Source of the DNA: Thuidium tamariscinum
Taxonomy: Eukaryota; Streptophyta; Bryopsida; Hypnales; Thuidiaceae
Reading direction: 5' to 3'
Assembly: GCA_947034885.2 (NCBI GenBank)
Contig: OX344751.2
Location: 35,081,582 to 35,145,581, forward strand
DNA: 64,000 nucleotides
Of this stretch, positions 24,901-61,918 are shown piece after piece; within the stretch, counting starts at the first letter, position 1, and every line of letters starts with the position of its first letter. The position numbers were made by a program, and so were the translations under genes. The notes beneath the pieces were generated by a model. That model searched no databases. It was not told the DNA's origin and saw nothing but the letters and a program-made list of their open reading frames with translations.

Positions 24901-26221
24901 GGGCTTCTCCAAAACTAGAGCTACTCAACTCCACCGCAATGGACTAAGGTAAATCAGGGATGCAATGGATAGAGGGACCTTCATATCGCCAGGAGAGGCA
25001 ACAACAAAATTCGGACTTCATCCAAACGAAGAGGGCGCGTAGACTTTTGCAACAACGTAGCTCGCAAGACAATGGGGAGCACTCATCTCTGCCCCTTACC
25101 CGAATGCAACAGAAGGAGACTGGGTGGGCTGGTACATCAACGAGCTCGACGAATGGCCTGCAGCCGTAGCCCAAGTCCCTCCCAACTTGTCCCCTCACAT
25201 TGGTGTCTCAGCAGCGAAGTAGCCATTCCTACCAGAACATGCAACTTTCGAAGTCCTCCCAATATCCAGAGTGCTCCGTCATTGGCAGACCACCAACCAA
25301 TCAGAGATACTGAGGAACGGCCTCGGCTTACTACATAGAGTCAGGATTATGCGAACCATGAGAGGTCCGAAAAAGGTTATTATTCGCTTTTTCTATGGGC
25401 GCATTGATCAGCTGGCATAGGACCCTCACAAGATTGCATGGAATTCAGATGGTGCTAGTACTCCGTTGCTGGAATATACAGCTAAATTAGGTCGGCAGTT
25501 GCTTAGGCGTGGTCACCAGGTGCCGAATCCTGTTACAAGGAAATGGGCAGGGGTCCTTCCAGGGGACTTCGTGCTCAAATGGAAATCGATCTGGCTCAAA
25601 GAGAGGGTTCGCAAAGAAGCTGGACTTTCATGGCTTGTGTGGCATAGAGGCGTCGCGGTCAACCACTGGAGAGGGAGAATCAACAATGCAATCGCCACCC
25701 ATTGTCCAGTCTACCCCGCCCGAGCCGATGAGACCATACTGCACAGATTTTGGGAATGTATCACAACGCAATGCGCTTGGCAATGGGCTATGCATATAAT
25801 GAACACTTTGCTTGAAGGAAGGAATGCGGTGGGACCTTGGAGACCCCTGTCCTGGAAACAGGGCTTATTCTTAGCTAATATTCCACGCAAATTCAACCAA
25901 GTGAAGTGCATTTGGCTCGAAATTCGGACCACGGTGATGTGGTCGCTCTGGATCCAGCGTAATGACATGGTTTTTAACAACACCCCCTAGTCCGCCCACC
26001 GCTTACTCCAGCAGATTTGGAATGGCCTCATCGACTATGGCAGAGTCGAATGGGCGAACATATGCAGGTCTAAGGGTCGATCTCAAGCATCACAGCGCAA
26101 GATTCTAGCAACCTTCACGAACCGCAGATGTCGAATGGATGTCTTCGCCTCAATGGAGGAGGAACAACCGCGCTGGAAAGTATCTGGCCCCCTTAGCGGT
26201 TTTGTTTTTCAACCACCCTAA
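21914..26221 (+). pseudogene. LINE ORF2 (endonuclease / reverse transcriptase / zf-RVT), 11 in-frame stops
   Basis: One frame of 1,436 codons holds the whole polyprotein without a frameshift. Endonuclease motifs: FQEHR, NIYASN, CGDWNF, SLARLDRCY and ADHLPV. Reverse transcriptase: LPGPDGIT, NWRPITLLN, LKLDFTKAFDTVDW (motif A), RRGVRQGCPLAPYLF (motif B), FADDTSL (motif C) and KLLGIPFG. Near the end, LSWLVWHRG and CPVYPARADETILHRFWEC form a zf-RVT-like zinc site. Internal stops are TAA at 21938 and 24950, TGA at 22820 and 24485, and TAG at 22913, 23153, 25040, 25058, 25220, 25418 and 25988. The start is inferred from ATG 21914 overlapping the ORF1 stop; the TAA at 21938 sits where WNVxGLN-type starts carry Trp. 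Catalytic residues are still present, but the chain cannot be made whole. Confidence 0.9.
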
Positions 26222-27008: not shown

Positions 27009-27934
27009 CCCCTAAAGTCCCAAAGTCCCCTCGGGGGACACTTGGGATTTCGGGCAGGCTCGTGTGACTTGAAATTTTGACCTGATTTTTTGAAACTTTT
27101 TTTGAAGATAGGGAATCACATCAGCTTTCTAAAAATATAATTTTTTTTCAATCGGTGCCCGGGAGTAGAAGTTTTGCCATCCGAAGTCAAAAAAGTAGTT
27201 CGGCAGGTAGAAAAAAAAACCACAAAAAAATGAAATTTTTTTTTTCAATTTTTTTCCTGAAAGATTATGTTTTTGTCTACATTTGAAGCTTTGATTCATC
27301 CTATTTGGACTAATAATGAAAAAGTTATGGACAATCTTGTTTTTCAGGCAATTTAAGCATCTTAAAAAAAAAACACTCATAGAATTCATTTTTGAATGCA
27401 ATTTTCAATTTTTTTCAAATTTTTTTTTTGACAAGGTTGAGTTTGTTTTCAAGAACAATCCCACCGTTGGGATTATGATTTCTTAATTCCATCTAAGGGC
27501 TAAAAACAATTTAGTATTTTGTTCAACTTTGGACCTACTTCTATTTAACAATTTTTTTATATGTGAAAATCAAGTTTTGACATTCTAAAATTTTTTTCAC
27601 CAACTCTCAACTCAAATGTTCAAGATAAAAAATTTTAACCTTATGGTGTGTAGTGCAAAAAAAATCCACAAATGGCCATCAAAGTCACCTGAAATTGAAG
27701 GCCGCAGTTGAAAAAAACTTTTTTTTTCAACTTCAAATGCTAATATCTTCCAATCCGTACGGTCAAACTTCATGAAATTTTTACCACATGATTTGAGACA
27801 AGTGAAGTACAAGATCCTATGGTTAGATTCTAAGAAGAAAAAAAGTTTTTTTAGGTTTCTTGAGTGATTGTAGCAGAAATGGCAATTTCCAGTGGTTTCA
27901 GAGCCAGAAAATGCCTTGGGAACTTAGGGGTTAA
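27005..27934. mobile_element. TTAA-bordered element, ~0.93 kb
   Basis: After the TTAA at 27005-27008 the left end reads CCCCTAAAGTCCCAAAG. The right end on the other strand reads CCCCTAAGTTCCCAAGG before the TTAA at 27931-27934. The interior is AT-rich with long A and T runs and no credible gene. Both borders are shared with neighbouring elements. Confidence 0.65.
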
Positions 27935-28678
27935 CCCCTAAATGCCTAAGCTGCGTTTTTTGGCATTATAAATTTTTTGGGCAGCTCACTATGGATGGAG
28001 TTTTTATTTTCTTTCTTCGAAATTTTCACACAACATGTGTCCAAGGAGTAGCTTCAAGGCCCAACAATTTTCATAACTTTTGACTACACGGTTAAGAAGT
28101 TACGGCATGATATGTCATTTTGTTTGAAGTGAGGGCAGCCCAGGCAGCTGAAAAAACTTCTTTAAAATTTTTTTTTTTCCAAAAGTAAAATTTCAAATTG
28201 ATTCTTTAGGTTTTTACAGACATGGGAAGCTTTGAATCATTCCATTTGGATCCACGAGTCAAAAGTTATGAGGAATTTTAGTTTGCGGGTAGGTATGGAG
28301 TTTTCGAATTCCAAACGTACCCGCAAACTAAAATTCCTCATAACTTTTGACTCGTGAACCCAAATGGAATGATTCAAAGCTTCCCATGTCTATAAAAACC
28401 TAAAGAATCAATTTGAAATTTTACTTTTGAAAAAAAAGTTTTTTTAAAGAAGTTTTTTCAGCTGCCCGGGCTGCCCTCACTTCAAACAAAATGACATATC
28501 ATGCCATAACTTCTTAACCGTGTAGTCAAAAGTTACGAAAATTGTTGGGCCTTGAAGCTACTCCTCGGACACATGTTGTGTGAAAATTTCGATGAAAGAA
28601 AATAAAAACTCCATCCGTAGTGAGCTGCCCAAAAAATTTATAATGCCAAAAAACGTAGCTTAGGCATTTAGGGGTTAA
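27931..28678. mobile_element. foldback element with ~357-bp arms, TTAA borders
   Basis: The left arm (27935-28291, starting CCCCTAAATGCCTAAG) and the right arm (28318-28674) are reverse complements with only scattered mismatches. They are separated by a spacer of about 26 bases (28292-28317). TTAA flanks both sides (27931-27934 and 28675-28678). Almost the whole element would fold into one hairpin if transcribed. It has no coding capacity. High arm identity argues for a recent origin or gene conversion. Confidence 0.88.
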
Positions 28679-36894: not shown

Positions 36895-39065
36895 ATGCCG
36901 AAGGCTTGCGATGCGTGTCAGGCGTCCAGTGCGGTGTTGTTCTGCCGTGCGGACGCGGCGTACCTGTGCGTGAGGTGCGACGGTAAAGTGCACGGCGCCA
37001 ACAAGCTGGCTTCGCGTCACGAGCGCGTGTGGATGTGCGAAGTGTGTGAGGTGGCGCCGGCCGTGGTGACGTGCAAGGCGGATGCGGCGTCGCTGTGCGT
37101 GGCGTGCGACACCGACATCCACTCCGCCAACCCGCTGGCGCAGCGTCACGAGAGAGTGCCGGTGACGCCGCTGATCGAGGCGTCGCCCTCATCGTCGCCG
37201 GGAGCGTTCGAAACGTTGCCATCGCACACTCAGGTGGGTGTCCTTAAGGGCGAGGAAGACGCGGACACGGAAGTCATCTCGTCGTGGCTTCTCCCGCACC
37301 CGTCCAGGATCCCCGCCGACGCCATCATCCGAGGCAGCGCCGCAGGTACGACCTTCCCAATTTTCGTTGTCCATTTGAACCCCACCTTCCATTCTTTCTT
37401 TCTGTCTCTTCACTCGGACAAACGAAGATTTGTGGAAGATTTCAGCGAGTAGAGTGCCGGTGAGAAGTCACCCCGTGCATTTTCTATTGCGAGAGTGAAC
37501 ATTTCAGGGGGAGTGGCAGTGGAGTAGATCCTTTGGTTCGATTTCGTCACTGAATCTCGGGTTTCAGAAGCGTGTGGTTATGGCTGAGCCATTTGGAAGA
37601 CTTTCGTGAGGCACTTGATCCCGCGGACTCTTCATAAGTTCCCTGCATTCCCTGTTTTGCCTCCCCTGGAACCTTTTGTTTTGTTTCGATAATGGATGCT
37701 TTGAATTTCGGCCTTCTCTATTCACCATGGTCGAGGCCCCATCTGCAGACATTGGGTTGTGCATGAAGTTAGGAGCGTTGAAGTTCTTGTTCCTTTAGTC
37801 CGGAGACTCTTAGTTCCGTATGGACAAGCAACTGGTGGAAAACTTCGGTTTCGCTTGATCCTTTTGCCATGTTGATTTGGTCCCGAAGTCTCATAGTTTC
37901 TGGTTTCGTATAATCTTCGGAGAGCTTTGATTTCTGCACGATGTGATATGTGCTTGAAGTTCCACCTGGTTGACTCTTGGATGGTCCCGTGCCTGGAATT
38001 GAGGGACGAAATCTGCGTATGGATTCTTTGTTGTAACGCTGTGATGGTGTTTGCACATGTCAGTTGGTGAAGGACCGCGGGCATCAGTCCTGTGCTCGTT
38101 CAGCCCTGCGAAGCCGCTGAAGGTGCAGAAGTTGGAGACGCTATCCGACGTCTTCTCGGACGTGGATCCTTTCCTGGAGTTGGACGCGGCTGCGGTGACG
38201 GGCTTACAGCCGGACAGCCTTGTGCCCGTGCACGTTCGCGAGGGCTCCGTGGACACGACCGCACTGATCCACTCGGTGGACCCTTCGTTCAGCACGGATG
38301 CTTCTTTTCCTCTGAAGGGGGAGAAGATCCACAGCAACAACTACAGCTATGGCACCTCCACTCTCACTCACAGCGTAAGTCCTGCATCACGCTCTCTGCC
38401 ACTCACTCCTTTTCAAAAGCTCTGCGTGCACATTCAATTCTGGATTGGCTTGTCACCCCAATGCTCTCGTGGAGTCTTCATTTGAGCTTTGATTTTAAGT
38501 CACATTTTTGAATGCCGTGTGCATGCCATTTTTGTGGAGTATTCAACAATTATGCGTTTCCTTTTTTCCAGAATCCGTGTAGTGGCAGGCACTCGTTAAT
38601 CACAGACGATATGGTGCAGAGTGCTTGCCTTGACAGACTGTTTGCTACCAGCATGGGGCAACTTGTGTCCGATTATAGCACCACTGATCTGTCGCCCTGT
38701 ATGTTTGTGTACAGATTTCATGTTCGTCTCTGGACGCGGCGGTGGTGCCCGACTCGAGCGTGAGCGACATCTCCACTCCGTATGCCGATTCGCAGAGCAG
38801 CTTGGAGTTTGGAGCCCGCATGGGGGGCCAGCAGCAGCAGGGAGGAGTCGCCGTGGATGTGTTGGACCGGGAAGCCCGCGTGATGCGTTACAAGGAGAAG
38901 CGTCAGAAGCGCAAGTTTGAGAAGACCATCCGGTACGCGTCTCGGAAAGCGTATGCGGAGAGCCGTCCCCGCGTGAAGGGCAGGTTTGCGAAGAGGACTG
39001 ATTCCGATGTGGAGCAGGTGTTCGGGTCTGTGGATTCCGGGTTCGGAGTGGTGCCCACTTTTTGA
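36895..39065 (+). CDS. CONSTANS-like protein, group I (two B-boxes, CCT, VP motif; 3 exons)
   Basis: This is a nuclear transcription regulator of the CO/COL family, whose CCT domain contacts NF-Y subunits and DNA. Exons are 36895-37345, 38064-38374 and 38715-39065. The introns are phase 1 (GTACG to CACATGTCAG) and phase 0 (GTAAGT to TGTACAG), and the joined product has 370 residues. B-box 1 spans about residues 5-42 ([28 protein letters not shown]) and B-box 2 about 48-85 ([28 protein letters not shown]). The middle region has [18 protein letters not shown] and [21 protein letters not shown]. The CCT domain is at about 306-348 ([19 protein letters not shown], then [22 protein letters not shown]). 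The C-terminus GFGVVPTF is a VP motif, which in this family binds COP1. Two intact B-boxes, the middle motifs and the VP tail place it in group I. Its exact biological role cannot be read from the sequence. Confidence 0.93.
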
Positions 39066-44826: not shown

Positions 44827-46384
44827 AGACTTCAAAGTGTTCTAACAATTACTTTGCAACAATGTTGCACAATGTCTTGAAAAGTGCATGCAAAGGTGGA
44901 GATACCCTATATAGATGATTTGAAGTCATATTTGAAACACTTTTAATTAGGAGATCCCTTCATCATAGAAATGAAGGGGTGTACAGAAATAGGTACAACT
45001 ATCTAACTACTATAATGTTTCAAGATGACTATAAATGTTCTTGTATAAAACCTAAATATAACTTTCAAATGCAGTCTCATTTTGTATTGATACTTTTCTA
45101 TAATTTTAGAATTAGTGCCACCACTTTAAAGTTATTAGAAAAAAAATTAGTGACATCTATGTAGAAGCTAACTTCAAATTCATTATAGATTTCCTACCAT
45201 TTCCAATAGACACATCAAGCACTAGTTTTGGGTACCTTGGAACTTGAAGGGATCGTTAGATCTTAAGCATTCACTATATAAATAATGAATATTGTGATAA
45301 GTACAATTTATCTAATTCATATTCATTGAAGGAAAATTTAAAAAAAAAATTCATCTAATATATCAATGTAAAGAAGAAAGAATACTCTACATTAATTAAT
45401 GGTGTTGAGAGTGGATGTTAGAGAAGTTTCAATTGTTTAGTGTAAGGTAATGTACTCTAAAAGTGATTTGACTACTACAAAGGTATCAATGCACCAACAA
45501 TGAATATTTATTTCTAAATTCTTTTGGCCATTTTCAAGGTGTTTTGGATCTTGATTTTATAAGTTATAGAAATTGAAGCTCAAAGTAATATGAGCCATTT
45601 TAGGAAAAATTAATAGTAGGATCTTGTAGAAAATGAAGTCCTTATCATCTCTTCAATGTTTGGTTTCAATCTAAGTCATATATTAGAAGATTATAATGTA
45701 AAAGTGAAGTGTATAGTAAAGAAATCTATATTTTGGCATAGCTCAAATTTTGCTTTAACTAGCTTTTTTGGACACATAACATTTTTGGAAGTTGGCATCC
45801 TACGATTATTTTGAAGGCGACTAAATTTCGTACATATGGAAATAAGTATTGTATTTTTTTGAATAAAAAATGAGTGAGAAAATGGTTTTGCAATAGTGAC
45901 TATTTCATTGTTAAATTTCAGAAGTTATTAGATTAATGGAAGATTTGTCACAAATTTGGAGCCAAATTCATGATCAAAGATGTTAGAGTGAAAGAATTCA
46001 AGAAAAGACATAATAGAAAAAAAAAAAAAAAAACCGGCTCGAATCCAATCCAACTATAAGATATCTATTATTTCTAATTATTGTCGCTAAATACAAACCA
46101 AGAAGAGGTAAAAGACACATGCTTCTACGTCATTGGCCAAAGTTTCTTATCCAATGACTCTTTTGACTCTTTATCTTCAAATCACCCACGCTTTGAAATT
46201 TTTTATAAACTCAATGGTTAATCTTCTTCTAAATCTAAATACACCACTTTAAAGTAAACTTTATTCCCTTTTAGAGCGAGTCCAAGTTCAAGTGACTTTT
46301 TTCATTTGTATGTCCAAGAATGGCTATTTTAAAAATGGATTGAGCCATTTTGGACTACTAAAAAATTTAAGGATTAAATAGATG
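44827..46384. other. AT-rich intergenic, nothing recognised
   Basis: No coding region is supported. A run of A's lies near 46018-46033. Confidence 0.5.
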
Positions 46385-46416
46385 CATTAGAGCCAATTTG
46401 GGGTCACAAGAGGGCC
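46385..46416 (+). repeat. left terminal inverted repeat of the 15.5-kb element
   Basis: The 32-bp sequence matches the reverse complement of 61887-61918 at 31 positions. The single difference is C versus T. Confidence 0.8.
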
Positions 46417-46987
46417 CTTTGAATTTTCCACTCCCTGGAAGCAAGGACGTTGCCTAATTGAAAATCTTGGTACAGCCTTGCTGGCACTATTGGTGGCAAT
46501 GTGGACTGCAAGCAATGAAATTGAGGGGTTCAACCAATCATATCCTTTCCTTGCGTACAATTAGTACTTGTGTTCAAACCACTGAAACACTTGAGTCCAG
46601 GGAGTGGTTGAGTAATAAACCATTTTTGAGTAGTCCTTGCAGCAAGCATGACTAAGGTACTTTGTACTGATGTTTTGAAAGGTGGCCTTATTTTAATATT
46701 TTTTTTGGAATAAAAAAGAAAAGAAATTGTTGCCATGGAAGAAGACATGTGTGCACGCAGGCGACACCACAACATTCAAATTAGCGGGAGAGGTCACGAA
46801 TTACCTAGAAGGGGAGAAATTAACGCCTCATTTACTTGGCAAGGCATTTTTTGGGGAAAAGATTGCAGTTGCGGCCGCATGATGATGAAGTTGTCCTCAT
46901 TGTGAAGGCATTTGTTGAAAAATATTGTTGCCACTAGTTGAATGTTTGAACTGTCGCATTGTCAAACAACAGCTACATCGGTTTAAG

Positions 46988-48245
46988 GTAGTTCACTTGG
47001 TAGAATGATGCACAATTGTGCACCAAAGCTAGAGGTATGTAGCATTGTAGTTTGCAATGACCAAGATGTCAATGGAGCATGGATACCAATGCGGTTGGAG
47101 GTCGATTCGTGGGTGACACTGTGAGCTACTTCTAGAGGCCATTGAGATAAGGACGCTTGGGCACATGGTGAAGAATCCGGTGTTGGAGCATGGGAGGCCT
47201 AGATGAAGGAGTTTAAATGGAGCACTAAAACTCCTATACAATCATCTAAGTTGGAGGGGATACTAGTGAGACATGCTTACCTTCATCAACAAATATTGTT
47301 GGATCCTGCCATTGCCCATGACGAGTAGCGTTGTGCCAACTACTTATACACTTTATTTTGGGAAGATTGGGTGCATCCTTCTTCTATATTTGACATCATA
47401 CTTGTACTGCATCACAAAGTAGGAGAAGCTACCAAGAACAAGAGACACCATCATGACTTGATGGACAACAACACCTTCTATTTGCGGGCAGTATATATGC
47501 CTCCATCAAGGGTAGAACTACATGGCTATTTGGAGCCAATTCCCTTGCCAACTTTTGACGAACCTGGTTGGCCATTACTCGACATGCAAATCTCCGAGGC
47601 ATTCTATTACAAATTGACTACTGACTTTGTGGCTGCAATGAAATTGTCCACTGGAAGCACGTCTGCTCATATCTAGTGGTTTATGCCCATGCATGTCATG
47701 GTTGATCTTTTTGCAACAACAATAGAGGATGTGCGTCGGACAACAACCATGTACATATTTCAACATCCCAGCCCTGAGCTATTGAGTGATCTCATGGACC
47801 TTGAATGGAAGGAGAAGTTTATCATTGGCCAAGACATTATGAAGTGTATTGTCAATACAGATAGCATCATCTTCTAGTACCATCTTGGGTGGCAAGTTTT
47901 GTACACCAATTTCTAGTACACGAGATTCAAGGCTGGTCCTAGAAGGGATAATTGGATTGCCATAGACGAAGTTACAGTTCCAAAAATGGTCAAGTTGACA
48001 GTCTAGTTTGGTGATATGGAGCTACCTTCCTTTGAGGTTGGCAAGTCGTGGCCAGTGTCTCATATTCGACACAAAATTGCCATTGTACTGGACAAGCAAG
48101 ATGTTCCAAATGAGTATGATCTCTCTATTGACCAACCTAGTTTTCCATCCTTCAAGGTATTTACACTGTGGATCTCGATACAACATGTATCAAATTATAT
48201 GAATGACTTTCGATTTTTGGATTTAGGGTTTGGTCAAGGATGTTG
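46988..48245 (+). pseudogene. decayed gene of unknown family, broken by TAG and TGA only
   Basis: One frame runs about 1,260 bases with coding-like sequence, for example EVCSIVVCNDQDVNGAWIP, YLYTLFWEDWVHPSSIFDII, YGYLEPIPLP-type sequence near 47521, FDEPGWPLLDMQISEAFYY and FEVGKSWPVSHIRHKIAIVL. Its in-frame stops are TGA at 47122 and 47143 and TAG at 47200, 47326, 47674, 47875, 47914 and 48004. Every surviving in-frame Gln codon I can find is CAA; none is CAG. A probable frameshift near 46990 separates it from an upstream stretch reading RIVKQQLHRFKVVHLVE. I do not recognise the protein family. It lies just inside the left end of the large element, on the strand reading inward. Confidence 0.6.
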
Positions 48246-48249
48246 ATGT

Positions 48250-49226
48250 TCATTAACACGAGATTTGTGCTCGTATTTGTCTAGATTAATGCAAGGAGTG
48301 AGAAAACTATAGAGATTCAACAACTAATACCAACAAATGGGAGGTTTAGAATGGTAGCAACATAGTAGCAATGACCTGTATGAAGTCATGTATGATTTAG
48401 TTTTGAATTAGAGTATGTTCTAGCTATAGACTTACAAAATATAAGTTGGTTTGTAGACTTACAAATATAGTAATGTTACTACAGCTATGCAAAAATGGTG
48501 TCGCAGTACAACAAAAGTGTCGCTTGATGGCGAGTTTTGTGCAAGTTAGTATTTGCAAACATTAATCCGTTTTTGACATATTTGTAAATTGAAATGCCAA
48601 ATACTTTTTGATATTTGCATATGAATTACCTTCATGGACACCAAATTGGATGGTTTGCTTACCTATAACAAGCATATAATTGCCAAAAACAATATGAACA
48701 CATCTTAGAAGAATAACATGAAATCTAGAAATAATGGAAGCCTTGTTGTGGTACACATGACTGACAATAAACAAGGGAGGTCTAAATTCCTACTTCAATA
48801 CTTGATTGCTACAACACTTGAAATCAAAGAGATAGATTGATAAAGTGAACTAGACGTTGGACACAACTTCTTACTTGTTCTAAAGAGAACTTACTAATTA
48901 CTATCATGACTTGACCTTTTTCCAACATAAAAATAATGGGAAGTTTATCTTTATAAAAATTGGAAGAGCCTAAGAATACGAAGTACATGTGCTAAAGCTT
49001 ACCAAGCGTTGTCTTGCCTGCCAAAGGCAACTCAACAACAAACAAAGTTCTAAGTGTGCACAGGGGTAGAGCTGCTAAGAATTACAACCTGATGCAAAAA
49101 TCCCAAACTGAATCAATAGTCAAATGTTACTGTCTTTGATTCTATCCTATAAAAAAAACACTATAAATAAGGAAACTGACTAGGAGTGAGCACTTGATCT
49201 AGGAGAGCACTTGCTACTGCAAGCTT
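48250..49226. other. spacer inside the large element
   Basis: AT-rich, with no coding region supported. Confidence 0.4.
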
Positions 49227-49741
49227 CTACATATTGCTTGCACCTGTTACTATAGGTTCTTCTACATTGCATGCATTTGGCATGACTTCTACTACGGTTG
49301 TAACATTTGCTCCCGCAGACTCTACACTATTGCAGGCATCTGGCATGACTTCTACTATGGTTGTAACACCTACTACCGTAGGCTGCATACTATTGCAGGC
49401 ATCAATACTGACTTTAGGTATGGTTCTCTCAACTGAAACAACCGATTCTTGCATTGTCTCTAGCATTTTGGGAGCAAAAAGGCTAGAGCCACATATTCAT
49501 TTTCTTGATCACTAGAATCTGCATTACCATCATCCACCACATCCTCTGCATAGCGCTTTGCCATGTGAAACCACCCAGCTATTGGTTCTTCAAAAAGATG
49601 AATTACCTCCTCTAATTCCTTTGACTGGCTACCTAAAATTCCCTTGCCAAGCTCCCATCCCAAAGTGCAACTCATAGCGTTTGATGCATGAATGCTAGCG
49701 GCAATGGTTTCATTGGTGCTAGCAAACCCCCATTGCAGCAT
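49227..49741 (-). pseudogene. decayed reading frames with a 21-residue tandem repeat
   Basis: On the minus strand, 49460-49741 encodes an acidic stretch (LEEVIHLFEEPIAGWFHMAKR, then DVVDDGNADSSDQENEYVAL). A +1 or -1 shift near 49465 leads into a frame with three tandem units of the form DACNSMQPTVVGVTTIVEVMP (about 63 bp each, 49240-49420). The unit is repeated at both DNA and protein level. No known domain was recognised. It may be one exon of a minus-strand gene inside the large element. Confidence 0.45.
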
Positions 49742-50052
49742 CCAAGGCTAATTGGGAACATGCAAGCATCGAGGACACACAACATTTTCCAACAGTGCAG
49801 TCTTGAATATGCAATTGTAAGCTAGATTTTGCACTAACTACAAAACCCAGGAAACAAGTATAGGGGTTCTTCGTTTAGGGAAAGGTTAAATCAGTCTAAC
49901 GTTTTGTGACTAAAAGTCACTTTAAACAAGATTTATATTTACAAATTTAGGTTAATAATATAACACTCTTATTCCCATATGTAAAATTTCGTTGACCAGT
50001 CCATTACCAATGTATGTATAAAGTCTTTGTCCTACATAGTGTTCTAAGGGAG

Positions 50053-50341
50053 GTCAAATCATTCTTTGTCAAATAATTCAGGTTTTGTCAAATGATTCTT
50101 ATATCGTGTATGCTCTAGGACTTAGTCACAACACAATAATACATAGAAAATAATACACATAGTTCTTTAATTATACCTTTTTTATGTGAAGGTCAAATTT
50201 GTCCGGTCAATCTACAGCTATCACGATCATGCGGAATTATGTCTAACGGTTCCGTAATCTACGTCAAATAATTCTCAATGTGTAAGAAATGATAATGTCA
50301 AATAGTTCTTACTTTTGAATTTTAATCAATTTAGGTCAAAT
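50053..50341 (+). repeat. cluster of seven GTCAAAT motifs
   Basis: GTCAAAT occurs in the same orientation starting at 50053, 50068, 50087, 50192, 50263, 50297 and 50335. Most are followed by a form of (A/C/G)ATTC or GTTC. Spacing is irregular. It could be a remnant of a short-period tandem repeat or a set of binding sites. Nothing about function is shown. Confidence 0.5.
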
Positions 50342-50514
50342 GAGTCCAAAACAACATAAATTATTATACAAACACCACAATAATGAATCAGTTAAAATTT
50401 TCTTTCAACACATAAAGTACACATGAAATAAACTATAATAATTGTAATATATATAATAATAGACAATAATAATAAAATAATGAAAATATTAATAATAACT
50501 ATTTATTTATTTAT

Positions 50515-50515
<1 letters not shown>

Positions 50516-50552
<37 letters not shown>

Positions 50553-50556
50553 TAAA
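50516..50556 (+). repeat. (AAT)n microsatellite
   Basis: About 13 AAT units in an AT-rich stretch. Confidence 0.9.
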
Positions 50557-50640
50557 TACAACAGCAATAACGAATTACAGTTACAGTTTTTTTCTTTTTT
50601 TAAAAAATAAATTAAAATATAAAATATTAAAAAATTAAAA

Positions 50641-51690
50641 AAAACACAAGCAAGGCCCTAAAGCCGCAGGGTCGGGGGCCTATAGCCGCGCGCCGGACCC
50701 TATGGCTACGCGATGGCCAGTCTGCCCCGACTGCAGGTCCAACTGCAGGGAGGTCCAACTGGCCAGACAGGAAGGTCGTTGGGGCTCTTTGGAAGGTCGC
50801 AGGGCCTTCAAATCCCTAATCTCCCTGCGCCTCTTGCTGCGGCTTCTGCGCCTTTTTTTTTTTTTGGGGGGGGGGGGGATCAAATTTGTTGCAATTCGAG
50901 GTGATTTCTGGTTCGTGATCTTATTCTCAACCTACACAATCTTTATTGATAACAAATTGGTGCAAAATTTTAACATTTGAAGGATTTGGGAAGAAATCGA
51001 ACCAGTGGCCACTTGTTTGCAATTTTTGGTCGATTTGTGTCAAATTTGGTTTGAATTTTGCTTCATTTCATCAATTCGACCACCTTGCTGGCTTCGATTT
51101 CTCCTATCCTCGCACCCCAAGGTACCAGCTGCTTTGAATTGTTGATTTCAGTGATTACAAGCTCCGATGTTGCAGCACACGGATACTGGACGTCGATGCT
51201 CCCCAAATTTTCATTTGAACTCGATCTGTCACATGGAGTTGATTTGTACCTCACAGGATTCACACCCGTATGCAATGATTTGCAAACACAATTTCTGATC
51301 CCAAATCCTCCACTTCACTGTGATCCACAATTCACACTCTTTTCAGTTTCTTTATTTGGGTTAAATTTGATTGACCAAATTCAATCTTCCATATTCGCAA
51401 TACTCCCGAATTTCACTTGTCAGCTTTCACGAACAAAACTCTCTCCACTCCTGCCGATTCTGTCTCTGAATCTTTTTCAATCAAACACAGAAAACAAAAC
51501 AAAACCAAAAGAAATCGAATATCTGCTGAATTTCCAATGTTGTTACTTTATTGTGCTACGGCAGGTTTGTCTCTCACTCTCCCAATTGACCAATGCCCAG
51601 ATTTTCACAGAAAGTCCCAAGGAAACAGATTTAATCCCTCACACGTCTAATTTACAACTTCAGGCAATTACCAATTCATAATAACAATAA
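50641..51690. other. GC-rich patch and pyrimidine-rich segment with T13-G13 junction
   Basis: Within the AT-rich interior of the large element, 50641-50850 is strongly GC-rich with loosely repeated blocks (CCCTAAAGCCGC, CCTATAGCCGCGC and CCCTATGGCTACGCG). It ends in about 13 T's followed by about 13 G's (50853-50878). From 50880 to 51690 the plus strand is pyrimidine-rich. One frame (about 51058-51681) stays open for 207 codons but begins with TTG, has no domain and may simply reflect composition. It could be a captured gene fragment or a nested insertion. Confidence 0.4.
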
Positions 51691-51955
51691 CATAATTTGC
51701 AAAATAACTCCAAACATACACGATGCAATAATACAACTAAATTCATATATATGTATATTAAAAAATGGGTCTTACAAATGCCGATGATGGCTTTTTTAAT
51801 TTCTAGTTTTCTAGTTTTTCTTTTTTTAAGAATTGAATAGGCAAGATGATGGAGGGGTGTGACCTAAGTCACACCTCATTCATCTAAAATAATTTTTCAT
51901 CTAAACTCGTGTCCCATTCATCCATACTACTCTATTTACATTACAAAAATTTTAA

Positions 51956-52050
51956 GTAACTTTTACTTTTACTTTTTTTCAACTTTTACTTTTACTTTTT
52001 ACTTTTACTTTTACTTTTTGGTTTAACTTTTACTTTTTACTTTTTAAGTG
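51956..52050 (+). repeat. ACTTTT-type simple repeat
   Basis: A run of TTTTACTTTTTAC-like units. Confidence 0.75.
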
Positions 52051-52131
52051 TTTTTATATTGTTTTTTTCCTAATTTTATTACTTTTCTATTACTTTTCTA
52101 TAACTTTTCTATAATTTTTTTAAAATAACAC

Positions 52132-52800
52132 CTAAAAGTCAACTATTTCTATACTACAGCAATGCAGATGGAACAGGCATCCACAACTAAAGGGAGAAAG
52201 TGTTGAGTGAGCAAAATATTTTTGGCAAGAAGCACATCGGTTAGATATATTTATATTTGACATATCTGTTGCTTCAATTGGTAGCAAAGACGAGTATGAT
52301 TGAGGTTGGATTCTACTGCTCTCAACAAAGAGTATGCTAATGTCAACTTTCATTCTTTCAATTTCTAGCTTCAACTTTTCTACCATGACTTCAGTGTTGT
52401 ACAAATTAGACTTGGACTTGCTCAGGAGAAGTCTTGTTGGTTTAACAACAATAGTAGCAACAATTATTTTGCAGTTCTTTGCTCTAACAACATCATTCAA
52501 GTGGGCCTTCTCTGCGTCGTTGCCCACCACTGCTTTAGCATGCTGCTACAACTCATAATGTTGGTTCCAACATTCTTCCTCTGCGGCAGTATACTGCGAC
52601 AGTAATTGCTCTTACATGGCCAACTCAAGTTTTAGATTCGCCGCCTGCTTCAGCAAAGAGTTTAGTCTCCCCTCTGCTTCTTGTTTCTTTGCAAGCAAGA
52701 CTTTTGTAGGGTTGGGCTTTGTTGCACGTGGGATTTTGGCCACCTACTCCACTTCAGGCCTACAAGAAGTAGAAGTGGACCTGACTGAAATTATGGTCAA
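52132..52800 (-). pseudogene. decayed coiled-coil protein exon with RING-like Cys/His end
   Basis: One minus-strand frame runs from about 52800 to a TAG at 52132. It encodes predicted coiled coil (LLAKKQEAEGRLNSLLKQAA, VMVEKLKLEIERMKVDISIL). Near the C-terminus is CASCQKYFAHSTLSPFSCGC followed by LFHLHCC, spacing that resembles a RING-type or similar zinc-binding module. Interior stops are TAG, TAA and TAG (near 52750, 52615 and 52550). There is no frameshift across the stretch. It belongs to the interior of the large element; function unknown. Confidence 0.5.
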
Positions 52801-53745
52801 GTGATTTAATTGTTTGCAACAGCTAAATCTTTAAAGAAGGTCAGTGGTTGGTGAGGTAATGATATGTCATAATTTTGGATTTTAAACATAGTTCCTTACA
52901 TATATTAGATAGGTAGAGAGGAAATGAGTTAGAAACCATTCATTTCTAGGCAATCAAAGCATATTTTACAACAATGTTGGAACCTTTTCACTTCCAAATT
53001 AAATTTTTTTTAATAATAACTCTTTAGAAGTTCACATTTGTAAAGCTTGATTTAAAAAATAATGAACATAGGGATTGAAAACCATTCAACCCTTGAACTT
53101 TTAGTTCTATAGTAGCACTCTATGATTTTTCAACAATCCTAATTCAAAAACTTCTATTTTCTAATGTATTTAATATTCTTGAAGGAATTAGAGTATCACT
53201 TAGATCATTTATGGGTTTTAAGATCATATACAATTTTAATTTTTTTTTCTAGAGGTGAAATATCAAAATTCGCTAAGTTTTCTAGAATTTGCCAAATAAA
53301 TTAAAAAAGAAAAGAAAATCATACTATAATGAAATTGCTCACCAAAATAATAAATTCTATGAAAATGTTTAGGTTTTACTTATTGTTACAATAAATAAGA
53401 ATATAGAGTTTTTTATTGTATTTTTTTGTATTATTCTTAAAACTAAACCTCAGTGTAGTTAAAATGACATTCTTATGTCTTCATTGTATGTTTGAAAGAA
53501 AAAAAAGTTGTACATTTTTTCCCTTGTAAATTGTATGACTGTTGTGAATTTGCACTACCTACGTGTATTTTGAATCCAGTCTTTGAATCAAACCAAAAAA
53601 ATTTATACACACTAAAAGTTTTAGTATAAAAAGTAGGTTGTAAAAAAAATCATACCAACTAAAGAATTTTACCCAAAGAAAGTAGGGTGTGGAATACAAA
53701 GCACAAATCCTTACAACCTAAAGTGCCTTTTAAACTAAAAAAAGA

Positions 53746-53798
<53 letters not shown>

Positions 53799-55259
53799 TA
53801 AGCAATATCAAATCAAGTGTCCAATTAAAGTCCAAGTGTTGAAAACCCTAAACTATGCTATTTAAAACAATATAAAAATAGGCTAAAATCTATGCATGTA
53901 TCCATTTTTAGTTATTTTCTTTTTACTATTTTGCTTTGAATTTGGTTTTTACTTCTAATTTATTTTTCTTAAAAAAAAATAGGCTCGAATTTAGGATTAA
54001 GACGAAAATCCTAAATTCTAGATTCTAAATCCTAAACCTTAGATCCTTATTCAAAGTTTACCCTAAATCCTAAAAACCTTCAAAACCCCTAAAATTCTCA
54101 AAATTTGAAATCCTTAATCTTAAAATTCTTCAATACTTTCTTCCAAAATCAAATTTTGTTTGTATATGAATTCCAAAATTACTCTTTCATGCGAGTACTA
54201 ATTTATAATAATTTTTTCACAAATTGTGAATTTGAGAGAAGACTCTAAATGTTTAGGATTTCATTTTTATTTTGTTTAGTCCTAGAGTTTTAGGTATATT
54301 AAATCATTTGGTTTTTCATTCTTCTGTGAAACAAGTAAAAGAAATTTCATTTAAATTAACTTAGCAAGTTGACATCTAACCGGCTTAGAAGTGGTTTGAT
54401 GAAATTCAATTAAGGTAGCTATGATTTGGACTTACTAGAGCAACAATATTTCACACAAAATCTACTCAAGGGTCTAGGGCTTTAGGCTATAATCAAAACC
54501 TTCTCTACTTGACATGTCCTTGTAGCCACAATGCCACGTAGTAGTCAATCAACGGTTAGGGAGACTAATTAGACATCTAAGGAGACAAGTTGTTGAAATG
54601 TCCATTTAATGCTCTGATTCACCATATTCACTGGTGCCTTAAGAAACAAACATTAACTTTGGGAATGGATCATTTTCAGTATGCTTGTATTGGAGAGCAG
54701 AAATTTTGAACTGCAAGAAGTTCTGTTAGCTACGTTTATTGCTTTGCATTGGGAGTGCACTGCGTTTCTTGTACAAGGAGTGGTTGCCAATTGTAGTGCA
54801 ATCCATGCTAGTCAACCGCACAATCTCAACTAGAACACCCTGTTGCAGCCTTTGTTGACAGTATACATACATTTGTTCTGGAATTGTACGCTGCTTGTTT
54901 TGGAAGTGTGATTATCTTAATTACGGAATTGAACATTGCTAGTATTTGAATGGTACCGTGCTTAGTGATAGGATTAGTTAGCACAAGCTGGGCTTTGGAT
55001 TCAATGAAGGTGAAGGTTGTATGCAATTTTGGACTTCTTGATTTCTTGAATTTTTGGAATGAACTACTTGCTTGTATTGGAAATGCAGTTATTGTAGGTT
55101 TGATCTCTACGCTTTTAGTATTCAAATTGTATGTTCTTCAGTGATAAGGTATGTTGTTGTATAGTTCGCACGGGATTATCGTGTCCCTAATTGTGCATTT
55201 TTCCTATATTCTTCCGAAATTGTCAAGGGTTTGGGGCACATTGATACAATGTTAGACAA
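52801..55259. other. AT-rich spacer with (TA)n run and telomere-like degenerate repeats
   Basis: It contains a (TA)n microsatellite of about 47 bp at 53749-53795. It also contains a stretch (about 53995-54115) of repeated CCTAAAT/CCTAAA-like words that loosely resembles the plant telomere repeat. No coding region is supported. Confidence 0.5.
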
Positions 55260-56395
55260 CAAAAAACTGGTGAGGATCCCCCCAAAAGCAAACAGTCCCC
55301 TGCAAAGAAGTCGCGTCAGTTTAAATACAAAGACGACGAAGCTAACGACATAGAGGACGTTGCTACAATGCAAGGGGTACATATGATGATCCATTCTAAA
55401 TTTTTGGAACCTTTCGACCTTGGATCCCCCTCCGAATCACTATAGGTGGAGATGATTAAAGTTGCTCTAGTTCTTCTTGGTTGCAATGCCGTCTACATTG
55501 AGGATTTCTTCATCAATGTGGATGGACTTTGTTATACAAGACTCTCCCTTAATTAGGAAAGTCCGAGCGACTCATGACAGTCACATTTTGATACAGTAGC
55601 CTCCTAAATGTGGTCGGTATGAGATAGCCGATTGCCTAGACAATGCTGAGGGTGAACTCTTTTGCACTTACTGGTTCAAAGTGTATGGTGAGACTCATGA
55701 CAATTCATACTTTTCCATGAAATACTTGTAGGGGTGCTACTATACGTACATGCTGAAGATTGCAGTGAACTGGGTATAGGAAGCCTTGGAACAACGTCAT
55801 TTGCGTGAAGGTCATGTTTCTCATAATCCTAAAAAATTGGGGGCAATGGTATTGTGGCAACATATTCAAGCGCTTTGTTATATCATCCAAGATGTTGAAG
55901 CAAACAAAGGCCCAGAAAACAGGAGTTTGAATGGAGCAAAATCAACCTTACAGGAATGCCTGAAGGAGGAAGAGAAAGATATAGAACTTGAGTGTCTTCT
56001 AGTTTCTAAGCTCAAACAAGCCAAAAAAGACTTGGTGGGTTTAGAGGGAGATGAGGACTATGAAGATGTGACTTCTCGCTTTAGTAAGGCATTTGTGGAA
56101 GCCAAATCACTACAACGTCAAGGGAAGGTTGAAGAGGCAGCAGCAAAAAAAGTAGAGGCCACAGCTTTGCTTGCTAAAATAAACAAGGCAATCGAAAAGG
56201 CTCAAGAGTATGAAGATTGCGTGTGGGAGTTGGAGGAGTGTTTAATGCCGCAAGCAAGAACACAACTCAAAATTTTTCGTGAATTGGTCGTTGCGGCTAA
56301 GGAGAAAGTGAGGCTACTATTGCTTTGTCCAAGTAATATTTCTAGAAGCTTTTATTTTTGGCATAGTTGTCTTGACCTAAAATTGTATATATTTT
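55260..56395 (+). pseudogene. decayed coiled-coil protein gene of unknown family
   Basis: The start encodes a basic stretch (KSKQSPAKKSRQFKYKDDEA), then LEPFDLGSPSESL, a TAG, and VALVLLGCNAVYIEDFFINV. After a probable frameshift near 55500-55560 the frame used downstream has TAG at 55597, 55729 and 55777, and reads through GRYEIADCLDNAEGELFCTY, YFSMKYL, GCYYTYMLKIAVNWV and EALEQRHLREGHVSHNPKKLG. It then reads a long charged helical region (55786-56310) with KEEEKDIELECLLVSKLKQA and RQGKVEEAAAKKVEATALLA. The last part is an open 203-codon frame predicted to form coiled coil. No family was recognised. Confidence 0.55.
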
Positions 56396-57480
56396 AACAT
56401 TAGAAGCTAACAAGTTTGTATGTGCTAGTATGCTTGATCTAGGATGCGTAGAAGCCGCAAAAAAGCTATCATCTCCTCGTGAAGATTGAGGTACGCCTAA
56501 TTTAGGGGGCACAAAGGCTATACTTTAGCTAATACCTTATCACAAAGATTTTAGAGGTAGTAGGGAATGAAGAGTAAGGCCATTTTGTAGGATGATGCCA
56601 ATATAGGCAGAGGCTTGGATCAATGGGTGATTGCAAGAAACACCTGTCCTATTTTGTGTCACACGGTGCATTTTGATTTTTTTTTTGGCCATAACTTTTG
56701 TGTTTTAGCTTCGATTGACTTAAGATTTGTAGAGAAGGTACTCATAAATATCATAAAGCTTCCATAATTTTTTCATAATTTTCAAAAATAGTTTACTATC
56801 CAAAAATAGCCCCCGATTGGATGTCACACTTGGTAGTTTAGGGGTTTTCAATACCTGAGATATACCTTTTTTTTAATGATTTTGACATGAAATTTGGATG
56901 AGATGGTCTTCTAATAGACTTCTATCTTTCCAGGGAAGGATTTTTTTTTAAAGTTAATTTTGTAAGGTGTGGAGGTCTACAAAGTGAGCTCCCTTCTGCT
57001 TGTATTTTGAAACATATAAAATATTATTTTGGTGGATTTTTTTGTGAATGACCATCTCCATAAAGTTGTTGAAAATGGACACCTTTTATTTTCTGAAAAT
57101 ATCTATTTTTACTATTTTCCCTAATTAAAACATGAAGGTATGTATTTTCTGGAGGTTTGGCACTTTTCAAGTTCTCCTACTTAGAGAATTTTTCTATCCA
57201 TTTCCTTCGGTGAAAACCTTCATCTTAGAGGTATATACACTATTCATATTTTTAAATTTTTTAAAAAATTAATTTTCTAATTTTAAAGTACTCCCGAAAA
57301 AATCAGCCAAACGCAACAAATAGGACATGTGTTTCTTGCAATCACCCCAATCCAGAAATGTAGTACAATGGTCCAATTTTGGAATTACAATTGTGCAAAG
57401 TAGCTGTCAATGTTTTGTCTTTACGTACTATACACATGAACCCAAGTTTTACATTCGGATGACTTCTATATATTCAATGC
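56396..57480. other. spacer inside the large element
   Basis: AT-rich, with no coding region supported. Confidence 0.4.
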
Positions 57481-57957
57481 ACAGCAGTACAAAAACTACC
57501 TTGTATTTGTAATATTTTCTTCACTCCACACTGGCTCTTCACTGTCCTCTGTACTGTTAGATACGTAGGTGGTGCTTATACTTGGACAAGCTGTGTGAGC
57601 CCCCTGTGATATAGCCTAATTTTGCACCGTATCCACATTCTTGTCATTAGGGTCTCCAAGTACCCACCTCCGTCCTTGACGCACACAGCCTTCATACCAC
57701 TGTATAAGCCTTGTTGCAACATCTGAAGTGCTCCATGCCAAATGATGACATTGCACCAATTCCGCAACCTCTAGTGCACCGTCACTGATAATCTCACTTG
57801 TTGCCATTTGTTGGGTGATCTTCCTAGCATATCTATGTTGTATATTTTTGTACCAATAATGATATTGTTGCACTATAATACTAGTTCGATCCTTGCTGCC
57901 TCTATGTTGTGTGTGTGCTTGACTCGCTGCTTTATGAGCATGATGTGATTTTTCCAT
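57480..57957 (-). pseudogene. decayed minus-strand reading frame
   Basis: The frame starting at ATG 57957 encodes SIIVQQYHYWYKNIQHRYAR, KITQQMATSEIISDGALEVA and WYEGCVRQGRRWVLGDPNDK, ending in TAG at 57616. The same frame stays open past that TAG (AISQGAHTACPSISTTYVSN, then an acidic SEEPVWSEEN-type stretch) to about 57495. No domain was recognised. It is downstream of, and on the same strand as, the 58.6-61.0 kb segment, so it may be the last exon of that gene. Confidence 0.45.
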
Positions 57958-58403
57958 ACCTTAGCAGCTCCAAACTGACAAGCTTCCATATTTTTGCACA
58001 AACCATGCTCTATGCTTCACAATTACATGCTACAAAAGCAATTAATTGAGAAGGTAATTAATTAACAACAAGGTGAATCAACCTTGTTTTAGAAAAAACT
58101 AATTGGTAGCCTCAGGAAAGTTACAAATCTAGTATACAGTAAAACTAAACTGTAATGTTCATAGTGAATGTATTGAACTTACCATGTAATATGTAACATG
58201 ATTTCTCCAAATACTTTCAAGGAAGCCTTTCCAAATTGATCCACCTTAGCTTTGCAAGCTTATCATTGCTGCTCTGTCAACATAAGACCAATGAGGTATG
58301 GTTGTAGCTCTTCTAAGGCTTCCCATACTTAAAAACTAAAAACAATTTCATCATGCTTGCCTATTCTCTAGAGTATTATTTTCATACAGTACATCTTTCC
58401 ATG

Positions 58404-58599
58404 CACTATAAGAAACTCATGTTTTAGGTGACGGATTTTAGGTGACATCCAATGTAACAACTCATCTTTTTATGTCAACAATGATGTCCGCCATAACATT
58501 AAGATGTTATGGCGGACATCATTGTTGACATAAAAAGATGAGTTGTTACATTGGATGTCACCTAAAATCCATCACCTAAAACATGAGTTTCTTATAGTG
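58404..58599. mobile_element. CACTA-type MITE, near-perfect hairpin, ATG duplication
   Basis: The 196-bp element begins CACTATAAGAAACTCATG and its right half is the reverse complement of its left half with about one mismatch. ATG at 58401-58403 and 58600-58602 is the 3-bp target duplication. The arms meet at TGTTATGGCGGACATC-type sequence near the centre. It is a young insertion within the older large element. A transcript would form a long hairpin of small-RNA precursor type. Confidence 0.92.
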
Positions 58600-61008
58600 A
58601 TGCTTTGTCTTAGTTTAACTAGGAACTTGGCTAGAACAGCCTCCTTGCCACTACTCCACTTAGGCTTGACTTCATTACCACATTCCCTGATTTTCGTAAC
58701 AATTTGTCATCCTTCTTTAGCTAATAGTTTCATCTTTCCACTCCAATAGCAGACAAAGACTTTTCAATAGACTCGATTGCCAAGGCCCTCCTTCGTTCAT
58801 CTTGCATGTTCCATATGAAAATGAAATGGAGATGAAGTATCTTCTCTATCAAATAAACTTGTGCATGTAAAGTGCACATATGTGTTTTGGATAAGGAAAT
58901 TGGCAAGACCATTTTCCACCGAGGGTGAGTGGCAGCATCACGTGGTTCTACTTCAATTCCTAAGGCAAATAGTCCACCTTGCTACTTGCCTTTCTTTCAA
59001 TTTTCATGCTCACGAGGGGCAGCTAAAGTAGCACACTTCTTTTGTTGTTCTTTTACTTGCTCACAATATATGCAATTCATCTTGCTAGAAGGACCATGCT
59101 GAAGCCTGTGCATACATTTAATAGGTTTTATATCTGCAATTGTTATGTGCCATTCCACGCTGAATATTCCAACACCATCGAAAAATAGTTCTTGACCATT
59201 TCTTTGTGTTGCTATTACCTTAAGAAATTTGGTTTTCTTGAAAACCCAATCAAGTACATCGTATGACTCTTTACCAATCTGGAAGGATGCGATTGGCCAT
59301 ATCTCCTGCTATAATTGAACTGAGAAATATTTGTCATCATTCCTTTGAATCTCAGGATCCAAAGCCCGATTCATCAATATCAAGCTGATACACTCATACT
59401 TCTTGCTTTGCTGTACTTCCGCTTCATCCAGCTTAAGCACGAACACTAGCAGTCCCCCGTTGCACTTTGCGGCCGCATGTACATAAATTGACACCATAAT
59501 CATCTACATAGTTGGAAATAGACACCAAAATTTGGATGTACTTTCAAATTGACAGAACTTACAGTATGGAAATAGTGTAGGAAACAGTGAGACTTCTAAG
59601 TAGAAATTCAATAATTATAAGTGGAAAGGATAGAGCCATTACCTTCAACAATGATGTTGTAAAATAGAACCATTGATCGTTGAACAACTTCAAGATCCAC
59701 AAACAAATTGTTCTTGCTATGAAGGATCACCTCTTTTTCTGGCTTTATCTCTTTCCTACCTTGACAAACTACTGGAATGACACACCTATCCTCAATATGG
59801 TAGTACTGACCAATAAATTGAGGTAACTTAGCATTCATATCTTGTCGCAAGCTAGCCAGCCAATGTGGAGCAGACAGAATGCTGGAAGTGATACTAGGAG
59901 CAATCAATCCAATCCGATTCTTTAATGTTCGATAGATTTCCTGGTACCCTCGATGAGTCACCCTTGCTCCATCGCACGCGTGCAACATTGAATCAAGCCC
60001 AACAATGTCGTCAATCTTTTGGATCACCTTTTTTGCTAAATTACTGCTTGCTTAACTAATTCTAGGTTGATCGATAAGTACATTGGCTTCACCCACAAAT
60101 AAAATGCTAGCAACTATTGCAGCAGTTGCACTTTGGGCATTGGAATCTTCCATCAACCGTTTCCTTGACCCACGAAGTCTGTTGCACGTTTGCACGGCCT
60201 TCACGATAGATGGCTGCAATTGTACTCTTATCATGGTCCTGTGATAATTGGCATGTCCTAATCCTCTAGCAAGCTCATGTAGACTCTTCATTCTTCCTCG
60301 GATTTGTTGCCACAAGCCTATAGGGGTCTCGACCATTGACTTGCACTCTGATTCCAATCTTCTATAATCAGCTTAGCATTTCTGTAAGTTTACTTCCAAC
60401 ACCCATACCTCTTCTTTATATTCTAAGTCTTTTGATGCCATACTACTCTTTGTACGAGTTAAAGACACCTTCAACTATAAGCATGTGCTTTCTAAAGCTC
60501 TCACATCACTGTGTAGGTGTTGGCACTCCTCCACATGATATGCTGCAATAGTCTCAAATTCTGCATGGAGTTGATGGCATTGACTTTGCAAATGCTATAT
60601 TTCAGTCTCATAAGCTACCACTTTCTCTTCTAACAACCAGACACTACTCTGCAATGATTCAATGATTGGCCTCAAACACTGCATACTAGAATCACTCTCA
60701 ACTGGTGTACACTTCAAGCGCTTCGTGTAACCCAACATCCCGCTCTCACCATGGCACAAGAATTCTAAATATTGTTTCATAGTTTTGAATTCTGATGTGG
60801 AATTGGTGGCAGGATTGACACAATACAAGCTACCATCAACCTACAAATCAATGTAGGTCTGGCCTTCTACTCTTAGTACAGGGAAACTTGACCATTTTGA
60901 TTGTTCTTCAAGAATTCTCCCTTTCCAAATGAGAGGAGCATACTTCTTGTCCATCTGAATTTGAACTGCATAATTACCTACACTATTTGTGACATCTCTC
61001 AAAGCCAT
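58600..61008 (-). pseudogene. decayed multi-exon gene of unknown family (coiled coil)
   Basis: An ATG at 61008 opens a minus-strand frame of about 455 codons (61008 to about 59643) without frameshift but with five stops: TAG at 60843, 60597 and 60477 (first base on the minus strand) and TAA at 60375 and 60054. It reads MALRDVTNSVGNYAVQIQMD, YAPLIWKGRILEEQSKWSSF, a long coiled-coil section, then HACDGARVTHRGYQEIYRTL, APHWLASLRQDMNAKLPQFI and QGRKEIKPEKEVILHSKNNL. After a probable intron (donor near 59642), a second open stretch (59503 to about 58730) reads GLLVFVLKLDEAEVQQSKKY, DVLDWVFKKTKFLKVIA, and CIYCEQVKEQQKKC with a CxxC. It also has TAG and TGA stops. The exact splice borders were not settled because phases do not match simply. 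No known family was recognised. Confidence 0.55.
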
Positions 61009-61886
61009 GTTGCTGCAATCTACCTAAACCGCGACCAACTACTAAGTCCAATTTCATAATTGTTTGAAGTCCATGCCAGCAAGGTGGACATGGAACACTA
61101 CATATTGTCCCGCCAAAAACCTAAAGGTGGCAATGCCATGCGACTTTGGCGCCATTCTTTTTACCCCAAATAATCCATAAAATACTACATGTACCTCCTT
61201 CTTCAAGCATCATTCTTCCTACAAGCCTCTTGTCCTCTTTCAACATAGCCACCAAACATGTCGATCCACTTTTGGAAGCATTCAACACGGCCACTTACAC
61301 GTCGACCCAATTTTGGAAGCAAATGTATCTGAAGGTTTTACAGATAGTGACCCTTTTTCTTGCTACCCATATGATCCAAGCCTTGCTGGCCACATGCCCA
61401 TTGCCAAAAGTCAAACCTTTGGGTGAAAGCACATTAATAGGAGCCACTTGTAGACGTTAGGGAGGTACTTATGGAGGTCCTTAATGGAATATTCCATTCA
61501 CAAATCATTGTATATTTATCTAAATTGTCCAAATTGAATCTATAAATCATTCATGATGGATTCATATAATTAGACTATTCTATGATAAGTTATTGATTGT
61601 TCATCCAAGAGAGTCTTCAATTCATTTATGATGGGTTACTTATTCAACCAAATAAGCACTCCATTTTTGTCCTTTTTACACTTAGAAAGTAAACATATTT
61701 AATTTAATTTAATCTTATGTCAAGAAGCTATAACTAAAAAACAATGCACAATAATTTTTTTTCCATGTTTTAATTCATATCTAAGAGTTAGAATGAAGAT
61801 TCTTCGAAAAAAACAGTGGTTATGCCCAAGTTGGCTCCTTGTAGTGTACTTTCATCCCTCTGGTACTGCCCATGGAGAGCTTACAA
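61009..61886. other. inner right flank of the large element
   Basis: Upstream side of the minus-strand gene. A 104-codon plus-strand frame (61146-61460) has no motif. A short duplicated block (CGA(T/C)CCA, then TTTTGGAAGCA) occurs near 61260-61325. Otherwise nothing was recognised. Confidence 0.4.
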
Positions 61887-61918
61887 GGCCCTCTTATGAC
61901 CCCAAATTGGCTCTAATG
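61887..61918 (-). repeat. right terminal inverted repeat of the 15.5-kb element
   Basis: Reverse complement of 46385-46416 with one mismatch in 32. Confidence 0.8.

Follow-up and report, generated by a model that had tools for sequence, protein, structure and literature searches.

The window analysed here is a stretch of 64,000 nt from Thuidium tamariscinum (Bryopsida; GenBank assembly GCA_947034885.2, contig OX344751.2, positions 35,081,582 to 35,145,581 of the forward strand). The 15.5-kb interval at positions 46385–61918 of this window very probably represents a cut-and-paste transposon of the CACTA/EnSpm-Mirage-Chapaev-Transib (CMCT) type, now dead, that resides in a land plant and has CATTAGAG termini, a RAG1-like transposase and a convergent partner gene. 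Insertions of the family show no target duplication: exact duplications of at least 3 bases were found at 0 of 27 insertions, comprising 18 miniature inverted-repeat transposable elements (MITEs), eight pairs of opposed termini and the window copy. The family is probably a zero-duplication variant of the known CMCT clade and not a wholly new kind of element; the lack of target duplication may itself be known already and is not claimed here as an unpublished property.

An earlier note, made from the letters of the window alone, had proposed a large DNA transposon lineage at this position. That proposal holds up in part: termini are paired, the interior is shared between the window and other copies, and empty sites in relatives end at the termini.

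Termini and distribution of the element

The two ends of the element, 46385–46416 on the plus strand (beginning CATTAGAG) and 61887–61918 on the minus strand (ending CTCTAATG), are identical as inverted repeats at 31 of 32 positions, as the earlier note had stated, and the identity falls off directly outside. Since only 6e-8 such pairs are expected in a random 64-kb sequence of the same composition, the inverted ends are taken as real and a chance repeat is ruled out. The first base, 46385, is exact in two further copies, copy B on C1 and copy C on C3 (stretches L002 and L003); at the other end, the alignments of copies D (L039/L040) and G (L043) reach position 61918. The right ends of copies B and C were not found in the stretches examined. 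Another copy on C3 (L004) is short and decayed, with both ends present and most of the middle gone. The end motif is CATTAG...CTAATG; one short paired copy ends CTAAAG.

Window positions 46300–46700, used as query, matched 11 places in the genome of 363 Mb, one of them the window itself. Seven of these stop at 46376–46378; the four of the seven that were inspected are copies of another repeat, next to the element. The 22-base terminus, searched with at most 3 mismatches, matched 49 sites genome-wide, and the reversed sequence used as control matched none. The sites form nine opposed pairs at most 25 kb apart, where random placement predicts 0.04. One of the nine (C3:17325773/17350423) is possibly not one element, and a further opposed pair on C4 (19.30/19.34 Mb) is 44.5 kb apart. 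Of the 49 sites, 18 are in opposed pairs within 25 kb and 31 are unpaired at this threshold. In five of the six non-window pairs that are 8–14 kb apart (on C2, C4 at 1.21 Mb, C5, C6 and C7) the transposase, a third gene and the partner follow in the same order; in the sixth (C4, 4.47 Mb) the third gene and the partner only are among the listed matches.

The two main genes are also linked across the genome. The catalytic part of the transposase gave 108 scored matches from 165 candidates in the genome, and 19 of the 56 matches longer than 1 kb list no stop. The partner, or left, gene gave 125 matches and the third gene 41. When the transposase matches were merged into 92 loci and the partner was sought in convergent orientation up to 20 kb 3′ of each locus, it was present at 66 loci, against 0.3 expected by random placement. 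Among transposase matches longer than 1 kb, 50 of 56 have a convergent partner. The cysteine-rich third gene occurs at fewer loci than the partner and is present in some lineages.

It is scarcely credible, given these counts, that the termini are copies of one repeat brought to either side of unrelated DNA by chance or recombination, so that the interval would not be one element. The interior of the window copy is patchy, since it contains nested inserts and its third gene is rearranged, and the unpaired terminus sites would fit such an origin; yet a full copy elsewhere has, between such termini, the left and right genes found here, and the gene linkage and the ordered paired copies led to the rejection of this explanation.

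Several copies are close to identical. Identity in the catalytic exon is 97–98 % among four copies of a young subfamily, 98.0 % for two copies of its sister group and 99.7 % for two copies of another lineage. The last two (C2:39.86 and 43.85 Mb) are 99.66 % identical over 8,727 bp, a comparison that covers the right end, ...CTTTCTAATG, and has the left end beyond the examined stretch; their flanks differ. Such copies suggest that the family has moved recently and would thus be open to direct study. The right-hand part of the window copy (58602–61430) gave 35 matches, of which one besides the window itself is full length, at 80 % identity. One scan each of viral and prokaryotic collections found no relatives.

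Target sites

The absence of duplication was examined in the flanks of individual insertions and at empty sites. The window copy is flanked by ATAGATG and GTTGCTC, which share no duplication. Among the 27 insertions, an exact 2-base duplication was present at one, against 2.2 by chance. The eight pairs include the C4 pair that is 44.5 kb apart. Twenty of the 40 scored copies of a 294-bp MITE that shares the end motif supplied the MITE sample; two of the twenty (L066 and L076), whose ends were misassigned, were dropped from the count, and with them included the result is 0 of 29 at 3 bp or more.

Empty sites agree with the flanks. The nested insert in copy C can be compared with copy B and the window, and a MITE in copy G with the window and copy D; in both cases the target bases are present once. 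A second MITE in copy G, compared with the window in more diverged sequence, also used its target once. An empty site for the window copy itself was not found, so that the comparison at the borders, which the earlier note had suggested, succeeds for relatives and not for this copy.

A short duplication that is made at insertion and then masked by decay of the flanks or resection of the ends is improbable. Most of the listed MITE copies are diverged, at 72–82 % identity to the query copy, which would allow for such decay. Comparison of flank identity with shuffles gave no excess at the tested lengths save weakly at length 4, and here two observations count against a complete lack of duplication: identity at length 4 is 0.343 against 0.263 in shuffles (p 0.025, one of 10 lengths, with no exact 4-mer), and the flanks of the young pair on C5 are alike at six of nine bases. 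However, copies that are 97–98 % identical likewise have no exact duplication, and the empty sites, two of them clear, retain the target bases once.

The target itself sets the family apart from Spy, a transposon type with a PHIS transposase that, in the cited passages of PMC4482050, also makes no duplications and inserts within AAATTT. Here the left flank ends in AAA at one of 27 insertions and the right flank starts with TTT at one of 27, and Spy was rejected on this result. Additionally, the transposase resembles RAG1, and no Harbinger-type Pfam match was obtained in the proteins scanned. The probability that the element is of the Spy type is therefore considered negligible.

The MITE with the same end motif is about 290 bp long (L043:2696–2989), and a first look gave 3114 candidates genome-wide, of which 40 were scored. 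Because of this number, small relatives of the family may be among the commoner repeats of the genome.

Gene content and decay of the window copy

A young relative, C2:44657313–44667335 (about 10 kb; L044/L045), was read end to end. Its left gene is on the plus strand and its third and right genes are on the minus strand; it is not intact, with two stops in the catalytic exon. The window copy has left and right genes matching those of this relative. The core of the element is two convergent genes, a transposase on the minus strand (about 57.7–61.0 kb) and a partner on the plus strand (47.0–48.2 kb).

The transposase was matched in three stretches, all on the minus strand. The N-terminal part (59626–61023), found by tblastn to L042, stays in one frame with 5 stops in 466 codons. 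The catalytic part (58622–59470), also in one frame, has 6 stops in 283 codons and contains the first D (KLDEAE), the second D (ADIKP) and CIYC. The last exon (57679–58029), with 1 stop in 117 codons, carries HVIVKH and, in GMEKSHH, the E presumed to be catalytic; the position of the intron before this exon was deduced from the splice sites of L042 and L044. The partner gene (47008–48159, plus strand), delimited by tblastn to an open copy in L044, is decayed, with 8 in-frame stops in its three matched stretches (4, 1 and 3). With 5, 6 and 1 stops in the transposase frame and 8 in the left gene, the window copy is dead. Over the whole transposase (57679–61023) the 12 stops are accompanied by no frameshift within the three matched stretches. 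Stops in the catalytic part are TAG in five of eight cases, as if base changes like C-to-T had caused most of the decay.

The third gene is in pieces. The part coding for the C-terminus, in which Cys and His residues form a RING-like pattern, lies at 52135–52545 on the minus strand and matches the third genes of L042 and L044; an open reading frame at 49460–49747 on the same strand is probably its C-terminal tail, by its likeness to the L042 tail by eye. The N-terminal half lies on the opposite strand at 55410–56394, where 55410–55716 matches L044 and an open reading frame at 55780–56394 continues it and is shared with copy G (L043), at 80 % identity over 55137–56242. Since parts of the gene are on both strands, it has been rearranged in the window copy. 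The region 49505–56303, which is missing from copy B, was considered as an insertion in the window copy, and this was dropped because the element's own third-gene pieces lie there; the region is read as belonging partly to the element itself. The RING reading of the third gene follows from the residue pattern and is weak: the Pfam match in L042 has an E value of 0.48, and there is no PDB support.

The earlier note had described coding-like segments on both strands, some of them perhaps cargo genes. The segments are real, as relatives elsewhere carry long open versions of them, and are mostly the element's own gene set in place of cargo. Likewise, the 15.5-kb interval stands as a transposon bounded by its termini, but its size is inflated by at least three nested inserts (56625–57347, 58404–58599 and about 61421–61856).

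Resemblance of the transposase to RAG1

The transposase has the layout D-D-CxxC-HxxxxH-E. CIYC and the H-x4-H motif are invariant or near-invariant in A3, an alignment of ten relatives drawn from twenty rows (fourteen relatives added), and both motifs are also present in those of L081–L094 whose sequence extends over the last exon, although L092 has one H changed. In relatives the H motif is HVLVKH and variants. Searches with single proteins and with a six-member alignment gave nothing credible in Pfam or PDB. With A3, however, the leading Pfam family was RAG1 (PF12940), matched by five of the ten members (best E 0.0054). A second Pfam scan covered five A3 members and two further relatives, and all seven matched RAG1. 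PF12940 is the only recurrent Pfam match, in 7 of 12 distinct relatives scanned. A KDZ-type element was also considered and rejected, with no Pfam KDZ match in five scans; a literature search on KDZ in plants found nothing.

Profile comparisons point the same way. In a PDB profile search all six sequences at E ≤10 are RAG1 (best E 0.22). A single hhalign comparison with the mouse RAG1 core aligned 317 columns (probability 33 %, E 4.5e-4) and placed RAG1 D708 on the D of ADMKT, CxxC on CIYC, the two HxxxxH motifs on each other, and E962 on the E of GMExSH. We take these RAG1 positions to be its catalytic and zinc residues. The first D (K-x-DEAE) is upstream, outside the local alignment; the D-D-E triad itself is inferred through the alignment to RAG1. 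Against RAG1, a related profile reached a score of 33.0, and the best of 200 local RAG1 shuffles stayed below it at 26.3.

Several results weigh against a RAG1-like transposase of the CMCT type with a convergent partner. All RAG1 Pfam scores are below threshold (best 15.3 bits against a curated 25) and the matches are confined to the C-terminal, catalytic part. Six members of alignment A2 gave no RAG1 match, their PDB matches being methionine sulfoxide reductase; nor did five of the ten A3 members (L042, L090, L088, L044 and the window copy itself), the L100 last exon alone, or L084, which is without the last exon. Modelling of the window piece gave no usable structure (pLDDT 34). At 26 of the 92 transposase loci, the 20 kb lying 3′ did not yield a convergent partner. 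Finally, the duplications of 2–5 bp given for the CMCT clade are not seen here. The profile search of the translated interior proposed in the earlier note has yielded a recurrent match in relatives, but a sub-threshold one and none for the window copy. Overall, the relation to RAG1 is consistent but distant, as judged from these alignments.

Relationship to described transposons

The closest described candidate is Lanisha, and the balance tips slightly towards the element being a member of this proposed superfamily, with its lack of duplication perhaps already described there. Lanisha reportedly comes from the moss Ceratodon, and the authors of the CMCT-clade paper that cites it are said to work on moss; the host here is also a land plant. 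The superfamily was proposed by Maumus, McDaniel and Carey (Repbase Reports 2020), cited in PMC12730594, where the passages concerned present an EnSpm-like lineage with C(2)C and H(3–4)H motifs, both of which are present here. Against membership, the same passages give 2–5 bp duplications for the CMCT clade generally. The likeness is one of motifs and plant host, compared by description only, and on that basis Lanisha is the most likely name for the family. Since Lanisha may be the same thing, the earlier note's description of the lineage as undescribed is doubtful.

In the cited passages of PMC12730594 the CMCT clade comprises EnSpm/CACTA, Mirage, Chapaev, Transib, Plavaka, ESTA and Lanisha, with RAG1 placed with it, and is characterized by C(2)C and H(3–4)H motifs, mostly CA..TG termini and 2–5 bp duplications. 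The present transposase has both motifs between the second D and the E, and the CATTAG...CTAATG ends share the CA..TG form. EnSpm/CACTA elements have CAC..GTG termini and a 3-bp duplication, neither of which is found here. Transib-like proteins have been reported in plants (39), and RAGL and Transib elements make 5-bp duplications, according to the cited parts of PMC9435367 and PMC4411706. A RAG1-like catalytic layout, with RAG1 matches that are all below threshold, appears to be shared with these elements; the 5-bp duplication (0 of 27) and the CAC-type termini are not, the termini here being CATTAGAG. The convergent arrangement of two genes between inverted repeats is shared with RAG1L/RAG2L, as described in the cited part of PMC7204232, but the partner here has no Pfam match, no credible PDB match (best E 0.18, to a ribosome assembly protein) and no sign of RAG2.

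A further reading is that the family constitutes a plant lineage of RAG1-related blunt integrators (zero-base stagger), in which the transposase acts with a dedicated, unrelated partner, convergent as in the RAG1/RAG2 transposon, and which is distinct from Lanisha and from every named superfamily. This reading is tentative and is considered rather unlikely.

For the favoured reading, a CMCT-type transposon with a zero-duplication habit, the transposase, perhaps together with the partner, would bind the termini and excise the element. Both ends would then be joined to the two target strands without stagger, which would leave no gap to fill and hence no duplicated target. The abundant MITEs of about 290 bp with the same end motif would be mobilized by this enzyme as well. 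The short duplications described for transposase relatives of RAG1 (5 bp in RAGL/Transib, 2–5 bp across the clade) mirror the distance between the two sites of strand transfer. If true, a RAG1-like family without duplication would offer a natural way to test what determines this distance. Additionally, a convergent plant element with a non-RAG2 partner would, if true, suggest that a RAG1-type enzyme has gained a dedicated partner more than once.

Other features of the window

At least three inserts are nested within the window copy. The first (56625–57347) is non-autonomous, with 30-bp inverted ends GGGTGATTGC... and a 4-bp duplication, CAAT; it is not at this position in copy B, which has another copy nearby. 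The insert belongs to a MITE family whose members have GGGTGATTGC at their ends, make duplications of 4 bp and occupy different insertion sites across the transposon copies (L009–L014 in addition to the window). The second, a CACTA-type MITE (58404–58599) with the duplication ATG, is absent from copies D and G. The third (about 61421–61856, ends approximate) is absent from L004, D and G and belongs to a MITE family with 40 scored places, this one included, among 70 candidates.

Directly outside the element, the neighbouring dispersed repeat at 45506–46377 stops some 7 bp short of the left terminus, with the terminal sequence ...TTTAAGGATTAA, and was also read in L005–L008. Elsewhere in the window there is a gene with a GRAS domain (4090–5235), a retrotransposon of the long interspersed nuclear element type (19695–25987) with DUF4283, endonuclease, reverse transcriptase and zf-RVT segments, and a gene with two B-box zinc fingers (36895–37449) that is CONSTANS-like by eye. 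The GRAS and B-box genes point to a land-plant host. A near-perfect palindrome is located at 27931–28678, with 372-nt arms that are 95 % complementary around a 4-nt spacer, and shorter palindromes are found nearby.

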